From Methanobrevibacter sp. YE315 (GTDB taxonomy: Archaea > Methanobacteriota > Methanobacteria > Methanobacteriales > Methanobacteriaceae): 64,000 bases of DNA. A program made the translations under genes and the position numbers. Shown piece after piece: positions 54,809 to 58,746 of the stretch. The stretch lies in assembly GCF_001548675.1 (NCBI RefSeq), contig NZ_CP010834.1, positions 1,957,501 through 2,021,500 of the forward strand, given 5' to 3'. Position 1 is the first letter of the stretch, and each line of letters begins with the position of its first letter. Under the pieces are notes generated by a model. The model did not search any database. It was not told where the DNA came from and saw only the letters and a program-made list of their open reading frames with translations.

Positions 54809-54850
54809 CAATCAATTAAAAAATAAATATTGTTTAAAGGGAGTTATTAT

Positions 54851-55327
54851 ATGGTAAAAACTAAAGATAATGTTATAAAATTAGACGATACAGACATCAA
54901 CATTCTTAAAATAATCAATGAAGATGTTAGAACTTCTTATAGGCAAATATCCCGTAGTTTAGATGTTTCTGTAGGAACTGTTCATAACCGTATCGATAAA
55001 ATGGTAAAATCCGGAGTTATTAAGAAATTTTCACCGGTTATTGACCATGAAAAGTTAGGTTTTGTCTTAACCACCATCATTGGTGTAAGAGTAAAAGGTG
55101 GAAAACTCAAAAATTGGGAAGAAAAAACATTCTTTAACAAAAATGTTGTAGGAATTTATGATGTTACTGGAGAATATGACGCATTTTTAATCGCTAAATT
55201 CAGAAACACCAACGAATTAAATGCATTTATTAAAGAATTATTAAAAGACCCAATTATAGAAAGGACCTATACCCAAACTGTTTTAGATGTTATTAAAGAA
55301 GACATGGGATCTTCAAACATTTTATAA
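54851..55327 (+). CDS. Lrp/AsnC-family transcriptional regulator
   Basis: This is a compact 158-residue regulator. The N-terminal winged helix-turn-helix has DDTDINILKIINEDVRTSYRQISRSLDVSVGTVHNRIDKMVKSGVI. The C-terminal RAM (effector) domain has LTTIIGVRVKGG, then VVGIYDVTGEYDAFLIAKF and the strand TYTQTVLDVIKED. ATG 54851 is chosen because GGGAG lies about seven bases upstream; the in-frame codons further upstream precede that site. Monocistronic, with a palindrome in its own promoter suggesting autoregulation. Confidence 0.93.
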   Translation: MVKTKDNVIKLDDTDINILKIINEDVRTSYRQISRSLDVSVGTVHNRIDKMVKSGVIKKFSPVIDHEKLGFVLTTIIGVRVKGGKLKNWEEKTFFNKNVVGIYDVTGEYDAFLIAKFRNTNELNAFIKELLKDPIIERTYTQTVLDVIKEDMGSSNIL

Positions 55328-55542: not shown

Positions 55543-56484
55543 TTGGCAGTTTGCTTACCCGATACTCAAGACGACACTCCAAGCATACCTATAAAACTAA
55601 CCAGAGTAGGTGTAACCGGAGTAAAAAAATTATTACAATTAGAAAGAACACATAAAAGACCAATAATTTTATTACCTACATTTGATGCATTCGTAGATTT
55701 ACCGAATGATCAAAAAGGTGTCCACATGTCTAGGAACCCGGAAGCAATAAGTGAAGTTCTCGAAACTGTTGCTGAAGATTCCACAGTGGATGTTGAATCA
55801 TTGTGTGCACAAATTGTTGACAAAATGATGACCAAACATGAATATGCAAAACGTGTCGAAATATCAATGACAACAGATTTCATGTTCATGAGAGAGTCAC
55901 CTGTGACTAAAAACAAAACCCAAGAAATGGCAAAACTGAAAGCCAAAGCTGTGGGATTCAGAGATGACAACGGTAACGTTGAAATTAGAAAAAGTATTGG
56001 TGCTGAAGTTATTGGAATGACTGTTTGCCCATGCGCACAGGAATCCGTAAGAGAATCCGATAAAATTAAATTATTAGAATTCTTAGATGAGGAAACCACT
56101 CAAAAAGTATTAGACACAGTTACTTTTGCTTCACACAACCAAAGAGGAGTTGGAACCTTATTAATTGAAGTTCCTGAAGATAAAGTCATTAAAGCTGAAG
56201 ATTTAATTGAAATTATCGAAAGTTCCATGAGTTCACCAGTCTGTGAATTACTTAAAAGACCTGATGAAAATGCAACCGTGATGAATGCTCACAGGAGCCC
56301 TGTTTTTGTTGAAGATTGTGTCAGAAATATGATGGAAAAGATTGCTAACAAATATTCTGATTTCCCTGATGACACTTTAATTACTGCTCGTCAAGAAAAT
56401 CAAGAAAGTATCCATAGACACAACGCTTTTGCAGAAAAAGTAACAACATTTGGTGAATTGAAAGAAGAATTGGACATTCAATAG
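55543..56484 (+). CDS. mptA: GTP cyclohydrolase IV (methanopterin pathway)
   Basis: MptA converts GTP to 7,8-dihydroneopterin 2',3'-cyclic phosphate using Fe(II); this is the first step of methanopterin synthesis. The FolE2/MptA blocks are GVTGVKKLLQL, VDLPNDQKGVHMSRNPEAISE, EYAKRVEISMTTDFMF and the metal-site MTVCPCAQESVRES (Cys near 165). 313 aa. The start is TTG at 55543, with GAGGT seven bases upstream and no in-frame ATG near. A TATA-like AAATATATAAATG about 60 nt upstream may be its promoter. It heads an operon with an unknown gene and cofG. Confidence 0.94.
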   Translation: MAVCLPDTQDDTPSIPIKLTRVGVTGVKKLLQLERTHKRPIILLPTFDAFVDLPNDQKGVHMSRNPEAISEVLETVAEDSTVDVESLCAQIVDKMMTKHEYAKRVEISMTTDFMFMRESPVTKNKTQEMAKLKAKAVGFRDDNGNVEIRKSIGAEVIGMTVCPCAQESVRESDKIKLLEFLDEETTQKVLDTVTFASHNQRGVGTLLIEVPEDKVIKAEDLIEIIESSMSSPVCELLKRPDENATVMNAHRSPVFVEDCVRNMMEKIANKYSDFPDDTLITARQENQESIHRHNAFAEKVTTFGELKEELDIQ

Positions 56485-56495
56485 GAATTGATTTA

Positions 56496-56936
56496 ATGAA
56501 ACAGACTTATGAAATTGCAGGACAGGTAATGGGATTTTTTGACTCATTCAAAGGATCAAGACCTGCAATAAATAATGATAAAATACTGATTGTAAGAGGC
56601 AGATCCAGAAAGGTTATCCCTTTAGATGAATTCGAATCCAAATTAACTGAAATTGGGGAAATTCTAGGAGGAACCGAAATAGAACCAAATTCAGAAAAAA
56701 TGGGAGAAATCCTAAAATCTGGAGATAAACACATCAAAGAAAGTGAAAGAAGTACAACTTCTGTTGATGAACAGGGATTCATTAGAATGAAGGAAGAATT
56801 AGAATCAATGGGACTTGTAGTTGGATACAAAGTATTCGAATTACCTTCTTATGATGCTGTTATCGCTATTTGGGAAGATAAAAATGAGATACCTCCACTT
56901 TATGTAGAGGTTACTGTCTCAAAACGTGAAGGCTAA
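56496..56936 (+). CDS. Unrecognised protein between mptA and cofG
   Basis: This 146-residue soluble protein starts KQTYEIAGQVMGFFDSFKGSRPAINNDKILIVRGRSRKVIPLDEF. A helical, Glu/Ser-rich middle is followed by a C-terminal strand pattern GLVVGYKVFELPSYDAVIAIWEDKNEIPP. There is no cofactor motif. It may be one of the methanogen families of unknown function (DUF2120 comes to mind, unconfirmed). Gaps are 11 nt after mptA and 3 nt before cofG, so it is made with enzymes of methanopterin and F420 synthesis. Confidence 0.65.
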   Translation: MKQTYEIAGQVMGFFDSFKGSRPAINNDKILIVRGRSRKVIPLDEFESKLTEIGEILGGTEIEPNSEKMGEILKSGDKHIKESERSTTSVDEQGFIRMKEELESMGLVVGYKVFELPSYDAVIAIWEDKNEIPPLYVEVTVSKREG

Positions 56937-56939
56937 ATA

Positions 56940-58031
56940 ATGCACTCAAATTTAAATAAAGAAGATATTCTCCAAATATTAAATGCAACTGACAGAGACA
57001 TAATTAATTATATGGCAGAAACTGCAAAATATAGGGAGAATAATCTTATTACTTATTCTAAAAATATTTTTATACCATTGACTGAAATCTGCAGAAATGA
57101 TTGTGGCTATTGTAATTTCAAAAAAGACCCGAATGATCCAAAAGCCATAATTCTTAAAACCAAAGAAGAGATATTGGAAAGCTTGAAAGAAGCTGAAGAA
57201 TACGGATGCAAAGAAGCTCTTTTTACATTTGGTGAAGATGCAGATGAAGAGGAAATAGTCCAGTTAAAATTAAAGGAATACGGTTATGACAAAATGATTG
57301 ATTACATCATTGATGTATGCCAAATGACTTTAAATGAAACAAAACTGCTCCCCCATACAAATGGAGGAAATTTCAGTTTTGAAGATTTGAAAAGACTAAA
57401 AGAAGTGAATGCATCATTGGGATTGATGCTTGAAAATTCATCTGACCGTTTAATGGAATTGCCGGCACATGCAAAAAGTCCCGGTAAAGACCCTAAATTA
57501 AGGTTGGAAACAATATCCAATGCAGGAAAGCTTAAAATCCCTTACACTACAGGCATTTTAATAGGGATTGGCGAAACAAAAGAAGAAATTGCCGAATCAC
57601 TGCTGGCCATTAAGGAACTTTATGACGAATATGGTCATATACAAGAGGTGATTATCCAAAATTTCACACCAATACCTGGAATTGAAATGGAAGACTGGCC
57701 GGAACCTACTTTTCTGGATATGGTTAGAACAGTCATTGCAGGAACTCTCTTATTTAAAGATACTGATGTCAGCATTCAAGTTCCACCTAACCTGAACAAT
57801 GAAACTGCACAGATATTCTTATTATGCGGAGCAGATGACTGGGGAGGAGTCTCACCCGTAAGTCCTGATTTTGTAAACATTACATCCCCATGGCCGGGAA
57901 TCGATGAACTTAGAAAATTGACTGAAGATGCAGGATTTGAACTAACTGAAAGACTGTGCGTTTATGAAAAATACATGAACGAGGAATGGTTAAATGAATG
58001 CCTCCTAAATAAAATAGCTAATATATCCTAA
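56940..58031 (+). CDS. cofG: FO synthase subunit 1 (CofG)
   Basis: CofG is a radical SAM enzyme that, with CofH, forms the deazaflavin FO from tyrosine and a ribitylaminouracil. The cluster motif CRNDCGYCNF has Cys51, 55 and 58. The sequence continues with EALFTFGEDADEEE, LLPHTNGGNFSFEDL and GLMLENSSDRLM as in archaeal CofG. The late barrel shows PYTTGILIGIGETKEEIAESLLAI. 363 aa. It is third in the mptA operon and overlaps the convergent taw2 by 14 bp. Confidence 0.95.
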   Translation: MHSNLNKEDILQILNATDRDIINYMAETAKYRENNLITYSKNIFIPLTEICRNDCGYCNFKKDPNDPKAIILKTKEEILESLKEAEEYGCKEALFTFGEDADEEEIVQLKLKEYGYDKMIDYIIDVCQMTLNETKLLPHTNGGNFSFEDLKRLKEVNASLGLMLENSSDRLMELPAHAKSPGKDPKLRLETISNAGKLKIPYTTGILIGIGETKEEIAESLLAIKELYDEYGHIQEVIIQNFTPIPGIEMEDWPEPTFLDMVRTVIAGTLLFKDTDVSIQVPPNLNNETAQIFLLCGADDWGGVSPVSPDFVNITSPWPGIDELRKLTEDAGFELTERLCVYEKYMNEEWLNECLLNKIANIS

Positions 58032-58746
58032 CATCCAACACGACATGCTCTACTCCAGGAGAATATTTCTTAATTTTATTTAGCTTTAGTAGCTCAACAT
58101 CCCTATCCCCTGCCTGAGAGACTATTCTTTCAATAGGTCTTGTATCCATCAACTTTTCAGGGACTGTTTCATGATAGTGTAAAACACCGCCTTCGTTTAA
58201 ACTGTCAATTGCGACCTTCAGATAATGATGAGTGGTTTTGACATAACCCATTACAATACGGTCCGCCTTATATTTTGGTGTTTCTGCTTTACAATCGCCC
58301 AATATTGGAGTGACATTATCCAAATTATTCAGTTTGATATTTTCACATAGATAATGATATGAGTTCGGATTAATTTCAATGGCAAAAATCTCCTTTGCAT
58401 TAGAGTGAACGCCTATTGGAATTGTAAAATAACCAATTCCTGCAAACATATCAATGACAGTTTCATCATCCTCAACTAACTTAGCTATCCGCAACCTTTC
58501 ATTGTTATTCCCTTTAGACCACATCACTTTTGACAAATCTAGTTTAAACAAGCAGCCATTTTCCTTATTTATTGTTTCAGTCTCATTTCCAAAAAGAATT
58601 TTATAAATTGGTTCCCTTTTGGTTCCTTGGATATGGTTAATTTTCATGATGGTTTTTACATTATGCCTTTCGGATAAGCTTTCAAAATCATCGTTTGAAT
58701 AACTATTGTCTAAAATTAGAATGTCGCCAATCTTTTTGTATTTCAT
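58018..58746 (-). CDS. taw2: tRNA wybutosine-pathway aminocarboxypropyltransferase (Trm5/Taw2 family)
   Basis: This is a SAM-dependent enzyme acting on G37-derived base of tRNA(Phe). The SAM motif I is VIDMFAGIGYFTIPIGVHSNAKEIFAIEINP. The motif MGYVKTTHHYL lies where Trm5 methylases have an N-x-P-type loop, which favours Taw2 (transfer of an aminocarboxypropyl group) over Trm5. The N-terminal part has KINHIQGTKREPIYKILFG, the RNA-binding segment. 242 aa. The exact activity is inferred from the motif. Confidence 0.8.
   Translation of the reverse strand: MKYKKIGDILILDNSYSNDDFESLSERHNVKTIMKINHIQGTKREPIYKILFGNETETINKENGCLFKLDLSKVMWSKGNNNERLRIAKLVEDDETVIDMFAGIGYFTIPIGVHSNAKEIFAIEINPNSYHYLCENIKLNNLDNVTPILGDCKAETPKYKADRIVMGYVKTTHHYLKVAIDSLNEGGVLHYHETVPEKLMDTRPIERIVSQAGDRDVELLKLNKIKKYSPGVEHVVLDVRIY

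Follow-up and report, generated by a model that had tools for sequence, protein, structure and literature searches.

The gene at positions 56496–56936 of the window (the whole 64,000-nucleotide stretch of Methanobrevibacter sp. YE315 DNA analysed here) is, judged by its sequence, a real gene encoding a full-length member of DUF2120 (Pfam PF09893). As an orthologue it is unexceptional, its family being catalogued, uncharacterised and near-universal in the class I methanogens examined. The operon link of this family to mptA and cofG, the genes for GTP cyclohydrolase MptA and for FO synthase subunit 1, is real yet lineage-bound. DUF2120 may be a non-enzymatic accessory protein of class I methanogens, produced here together with MptA and CofG and most plausibly binding or regulating MptA. 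This reading is favoured tentatively; a housekeeping role that has nothing to do with either pathway is nearly as likely.

The DUF2120 gene and its operon

A first-pass annotation of this DNA had described an unknown gene between mptA and cofG, separated from them by 11 and 3 nt. The position and the gaps are correct, mptA ending with its stop codon at 56484 and cofG starting at 56940, and the identities of both neighbours are borne out by family scores far above their cut-offs. 'Unknown' holds in the sense that the gene is without an assigned function, but not in the sense of a new family, DUF2120 having already been catalogued. The region is arranged as follows.

54830–55327, plus strand: regulator of the Lrp/AsnC family, ending 215 nt before mptA (PF13412, PF01037)
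55543–56484, plus strand: mptA, GTP cyclohydrolase MptA, TTG start (TIGR00294, 421 bits, cut-off 220; PF02649)
56485–56495, plus strand: 11-nt gap between mptA and the DUF2120 gene (from the sequence)
56496–56936, plus strand: gene for the DUF2120 protein, 146 aa (PF09893, E 9.6e-39, full length)
56937–56939, plus strand: 3-nt gap between the DUF2120 gene and cofG (from the sequence)
56940–58031, plus strand: cofG, FO synthase subunit 1, radical SAM (NF004884, 459 bits, cut-off 209; TIGR03550, 441 bits; PF04055)
58018–58746, minus strand: taw2-like tRNA wyosine transferase gene, convergent (PF02475, E 1.6e-65)

In the list of open reading frames of the window, the DUF2120 gene is a plus-strand frame of 146 codons' worth of protein with an ATG start. 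Its product matches PF09893 with 133 bits (cut-off 25.3) over model positions 1–136 of 136; this is its only Pfam match, and no NCBIfam model matched it at E ≤ 10. A GAGGT motif precedes the TTG start of mptA, and a ribosome-binding-like AGGA (56483–56486) overlaps the mptA stop codon. The motif GAAGG (56928–56932) lies within the 3′ end of the DUF2120 gene, ahead of cofG, for which it may act as the ribosome-binding site. The placement of AGGA and GAAGG is consistent with coupled translation. Downstream, the operon is bounded by the convergent taw2-like gene, whose coordinates overlap the end of cofG by 14 nt; the top NCBIfam match of this gene, NF047824, reached 312 bits, under its cut-off of 350. 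On the other side, the Lrp/AsnC-family regulator is an upstream neighbour of the operon and only a putative member of it.

Sequence conservation was assessed by aligning the window protein with 111 other distinct sequences, giving 112 rows. One residue, E138, is invariant in all 112 rows, followed by S21 (99%), V33 (98%), A17, G20, G94 and P134 (97% each), D91 and E103 (96%), D128 (92%) and R34 (88%, otherwise mostly K); Cys and His stay below 75% at every position. The window protein has G20, S21, V33, R34, D91, G94, E103, D128, P134 and E138, and departs from the conserved set only at residue 17, where it has S in place of the A found in 97% of rows. No feature was found that would distinguish the window copy in kind from the rest of the family; Methanopyri-like copies sit in longer open frames of 186–241 aa.

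DUF2120 evolves faster than MptA and CofG. Mean pairwise identity is 58% for DUF2120, 66% for CofG and 79% for MptA at the 21 of 31 loci that have all three genes, a sample that is not random, as it was taken from the 30 best-scoring DUF2120 matches in the window's phylum plus the window. The distances among MptA, DUF2120 and CofG are correlated (r 0.94, 0.94 and 0.85), but this effect is inseparable from that of shared ancestry and was not used as evidence.

Distribution of DUF2120 among archaea

Methanobacteriota, Methanococci and Methanopyri are names given here to groups on the basis of named loci (L083–L085, L032–L082). PF02649 covers both MptA and FolE2, so that 'MptA' in the genome surveys stands for a PF02649 match, TIGR00294 having been applied to the window only. 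Within the window's phylum, DUF2120 is present in 143 of 151 genomes, PF02649 in 144 and CofG in 145. Five of the eight genomes without DUF2120 also miss PF02649 and CofG, a pattern suggestive of an absent contig and not of loss of the gene. The family was also found in 32 of 36 genomes of the Methanocaldococcus phylum (Methanococci) and in all five Methanopyri-like genomes, giving 180 of the 192 class I methanogen genomes examined. The idea that the gene is peculiar to this operon or genus was rejected, as the family spans these three groups.

In a set of 197 genomes around Methanopyrus, which can be read as a spread of archaea, DUF2120 is present in 24, each also carrying PF02649 and CofG, and the other 173 gave no match over the cut-off; a smaller run found the family in 10 of 61 genomes. 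PF02649 and CofG occur without DUF2120 in 21 of the 197. For 12 of these 21 the PF02649 match scores 237–279 bits, close to the 260–279 bits that this search gave for class I genomes; the remaining nine score lower and their match could be FolE2 or a fragment. The controls M. acetivorans and H. volcanii likewise have PF02649 and CofG, and no DUF2120. The absence of the family outside class I is based on the 173 genomes, 14 control genomes and one non-exhaustive, pattern-led scan of GTDB contigs. This distribution indicates that DUF2120 marks class I methanogens and is dispensable for MptA and CofG as such.

Three unusual matches were seen in these surveys. The Sulfolobus acidocaldarius control has a DUF2120 match at E ≤ 0.001, below the family cut-off, which is the sole hint of a relative outside class I. 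On contig C145 of genome G068 (1005–1392) the family matches in two parts, model positions 1–71 and 84–136, in the manner of a frameshift or assembly error. Genome G082 has a second, weak DUF2120-like match on contig C34 (3856–4188) which, at 25.3 bits, equals the cut-off and contains one internal TAG, with an open frame of 290 aa.

The first-pass annotation had raised the possibility that the protein performs a missing pathway step. As a general step this is not supported: 21 genomes have an MptA-family match and CofG yet no DUF2120, so that pterin or deazaflavin synthesis does not generally depend on DUF2120 as an enzyme, and no Cys or His reaches the level of conservation given above. An enzyme of methanopterin or F420 synthesis in a narrower sense, which might for example dephosphorylate dihydroneopterin phosphate, is quite improbable. 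It would agree with the position in the operon, the conserved polar residues S21, R34, D91, E103, D128 and E138 would permit an active site, and the table of a 2011 review estimated seven methanopterin proteins still unknown beside MptA, MptB and RFAP synthase (PMC3087415). However, since the family is missing from those 21 genomes, and from M. acetivorans and H. volcanii, which carry both markers, such an enzyme could only be a class-I-specific replacement. The faster evolution of DUF2120 relative to both neighbours also argues against it, as does the lack of any sequence match or convincing fold match to an enzyme. A helper protein is more likely than a missing enzyme.

Gene neighbourhood in the window's phylum

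In the 143 DUF2120 genomes of the window's phylum, a gene was scored as a neighbour if it shared the strand of DUF2120 and lay no more than 450 nt from the ends of the model match. By this measure mptA lies upstream of DUF2120 in 127 genomes and cofG downstream in 131; the mptA–DUF2120–cofG trio is intact in 117, and at least one partner adjoins in 141. The earlier proposal that the protein is produced together with MptA and CofG is therefore well supported in this phylum. In the two genomes with neither neighbour, one or both partners are on another contig, and in one of the two (G025) a cofG fragment lies directly 3′ of DUF2120 at the contig end. The mptA gene is the only neighbour in 10 genomes, four of which owe this to a cofG gap of 527–588 nt. 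Genus g9 differs in that 13 of its 17 DUF2120 genomes keep cofG adjoining and mptA not, mptA being 1.1–12.6 kb away or, in one genome, not found; in one genome more, G131, mptA is 469 nt from DUF2120. At one of the g9 loci (L156; G024 contig C1, about 2508699–2521291), the stretch between mptA and DUF2120–cofG includes large ORFs, the starts of which presumably resemble those of secreted adhesin-like proteins.

The wider surroundings were surveyed at 32 loci, taking in up to 6 kb of flanking DNA, with pairs of up to 700 nt counted from the gene nearer the centre of the trio and genes with less than 2.5 kb of contig on either side omitted; as the genomes are related, the counts are not independent trials. 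DUF2120–CofG was kept in 22 of 22 cases and MptA–DUF2120 in 15 of 22, compared with 7 of 18 for MptA–Lrp and 8 of 19 for CofG–Taw2. Counted in the reverse direction, Lrp–MptA was kept in 6 of 8 and Taw2–CofG in 9 of 15, and the pair PsmB–KH nuclease in 5 of 5. The three genes hold together better than they do with those directly flanking them, and the wider gene order is partly kept too. In the window, taw2, psmB and the KH nuclease gene come after cofG; at loci L063 and L064 taw2 is inverted and lies upstream of mptA, with the trio intact, and at L063 psmB and the KH nuclease gene are likewise inverted upstream of mptA.

Gene neighbourhood in Methanopyri and Methanococci

In all five Methanopyri-like genomes mptA is directly 5′ of DUF2120 and cofG is elsewhere; at the one locus scanned, the next gene encodes a lysA-type PLP decarboxylase. 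In Methanococci, DUF2120 adjoins neither mptA nor cofG in any of the nine genomes in which all three were located. A survey of 31 of the 32 Methanococci loci (G160 was left out) placed the upstream neighbours in three clusters: lactate/malate dehydrogenase (12 loci), LPG_synthase_TM (17 loci), each identified by a scan of one member, and a cluster that we take to be MarC-like (2 loci). Whether the gene occurs mostly outside such operons, which would tell against the operon-based reading of the first-pass annotation, accordingly has a different answer in each group: it does in Methanococci, it does not in the window's phylum, and in Methanopyri half of the link remains, to mptA and not to cofG.

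Two loci of Methanococci showed further arrangements. At L132 (5033–6408, genome G166) the DUF2120 gene shares 10 nt with the start of hemB (ALAD, PF00490), a coenzyme-related neighbour. At L122 (4616–5139), from a Methanocaldococcus sp. and corresponding in place to L085, a pair of short ORFs that overlap each other lies between hcgC and the malate/lactate dehydrogenase gene; this pair presumably resembles a toxin–antitoxin system of the MazEF type.

These differing neighbourhoods bear on the alternative that DUF2120 is a housekeeping protein of class I methanogens unrelated to pterins or deazaflavins, its place in the operon reflecting an old rearrangement preserved by stable gene order. The different neighbours in Methanococci, the frequent conservation of wider gene order around the trio, and the 21 genomes with an MptA-family match and CofG alone all agree with this. 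Against it, the trio outlasts its immediate flanks, as the contrast between DUF2120–CofG and CofG–Taw2 and the inversions adjoining the trio at L063 and L064 indicate, and mptA adjoins DUF2120 in a second class, Methanopyri.

The presence of hcgC and mdh near DUF2120 in Methanocaldococcus-type loci raised another alternative, a role in the biosynthesis of the FeGP cofactor of [Fe]-hydrogenase. The HcgC cluster, identified as PF06690 from one member scanned, is two genes 5′ of DUF2120 in 8 of the 12 mdh loci and four genes 5′ in one of the 12. However, of the 143 DUF2120 genomes just 86 have an HcgC match above the cut-off, some of the other 57 being incomplete assemblies, and all 18 DUF2120 genomes of genus g12 are without it. 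A role in FeGP-cofactor synthesis is very unlikely, and was rejected because of these 57 genomes. For the window's phylum as a whole, 86 of 151 genomes have HcgC over its cut-off, while all 20 of genus g12 lack it, which points to a patchy loss of [Fe]-hydrogenase cofactor synthesis.

Predicted structure of DUF2120

The AlphaFold model of the window protein has a pLDDT of 85.0 and a pTM of 0.83, and that of a Methanocaldococcus relative a pLDDT of 81.1 and a pTM of 0.77. In both models an N-terminal helix is followed by two antiparallel strands, helices and three long C-terminal strands; they differ by one short strand and, as most alignment rows are common to both, are not independent. Structure prediction, which the first-pass annotation had proposed, thus gave a tentative lead without a firm relative: Foldseek returned no match at E ≤ 0.001 for either model, whereas in a second structural aligner DcrB (6e8a) ranked first for both the window model (Z 7.2, rmsd 3.1, 99 residues aligned) and the Methanocaldococcus model (Z 6.7, rmsd 3.4, 98 aligned). 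Further matches common to the two models are Eag chaperones (EagT6, SciW), PsbP, phage Dip and Mog1. Tentatively, then, DUF2120 is predicted to be one small alpha/beta domain resembling the Mog1p/PsbP/DcrB/Eag fold. The resemblance is a lead only, as all the Z-scores are below 8, in the usual background range, and such scores can be background. Thioesterases, which make up most of the Foldseek list for the second model, were dropped (TM about 0.2).

Mog1p/PsbP-like proteins (DcrB 6e8a, EagT6/SciW, PsbP and Mog1) give the best alignments and are like DUF2120 in predicted topology, but share no sequence similarity with it, and no signal peptide or lipobox was seen by eye in the window protein. 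Searches of PDB sequences with phmmer and with a profile gave no Mog1p/PsbP-like member at E ≤ 10 and no convincing relative of any kind, the best E being 0.06; matches to Rad50, NEMF and others, at 0.06 or worse, were dropped. Most Mog1p/PsbP members bind partners rather than catalyse. According to PMC7716261, DcrB belongs to the Mog1p/PsbP family, a group diverse in function, and is distantly related to PA1624 (DALI Z 8.5 over 101 residues, 7% identity). The scores between DUF2120 and DcrB are comparable to those of that relation.

Possible function of DUF2120

As an accessory protein, DUF2120 would be a soluble, non-enzymatic helper that binds a coenzyme-biosynthesis enzyme and either stabilises it or sets its activity. 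The likeliest partner would be MptA, because mptA is the neighbour common to two classes. In the window, mptA, DUF2120 and cofG would form one transcript with coupled translation, so that production of the helper would keep pace with that of the two enzymes. Methanococci would make this protein from a locus of its own, and the protein, being unlinked to mptA and cofG, would have to reach any partner in trans. Two observations stand against parts of this reading. Genomes with an MptA-family match and CofG manage without DUF2120 in the 21 cases described, and the genus g9 loci, together with the tighter link to cofG, point to CofG rather than MptA as the partner.

A more specific form of the accessory reading is rather unlikely. 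Here DUF2120 would be a subunit devoted to the regulation of MptA, corresponding in archaea to animal GFRP but with a Mog1/PsbP-like fold. It would have a single origin, in the ancestor that class I methanogens share, and would tune the supply of methanopterin; its placement in Methanobacteriota would make F420 synthesis follow.

The first-pass annotation had suggested a protein that balances the use of GTP between the two pathways. A sensor of this kind, which would act in the manner of GFRP, an animal feedback protein of GTP cyclohydrolase I, is unlikely. In two classes the DUF2120 gene accompanies that of a GTP cyclohydrolase, and the protein is small, fast-evolving and free of conserved Cys or His, all of which would suit this role. 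On the other hand, with DUF2120 as its sole family match the protein falls in no known nucleotide-binding family; it is unlinked in Methanococci; and CofG does not itself use GTP. The likeness to GFRP is one of idea only, that of a GTP cyclohydrolase with a small protein attached to it, as there is no sequence match between them and MptA is of a different cyclohydrolase class from GFRP's target. Neither GFRP nor a known pterin enzyme was among the structural matches listed, which carries no weight either way.

Significance

No paper naming DUF2120 was found in the open-access literature searched, which also contained no mention of PF09893, MTH1197, MTBMA_c15750, guessed Msm and MMP tags, or MJ0491, the last of which we take, from gene order, to be a DUF2120 gene. 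In PMC3087415, MTH1196 is MptA and MTH1198 is CofG, from which MTH1197 is presumably the DUF2120 gene. Excerpts of PMC1852104 and PMC4390880 held nothing on guessed MK tags and on the family, respectively.

DUF2120 is probably needed by class I methanogens, since it is kept in 180 of 192 genomes and has no match over the cut-off in the 173 others. In ruminants and in people, methane is made mainly by Methanobrevibacter species. A role assigned to a protein encoded beside the genes for two essential coenzymes could have practical use, and near-universality in class I, with no match over the cut-off elsewhere, makes DUF2120 a fair target, if not a surprising one.
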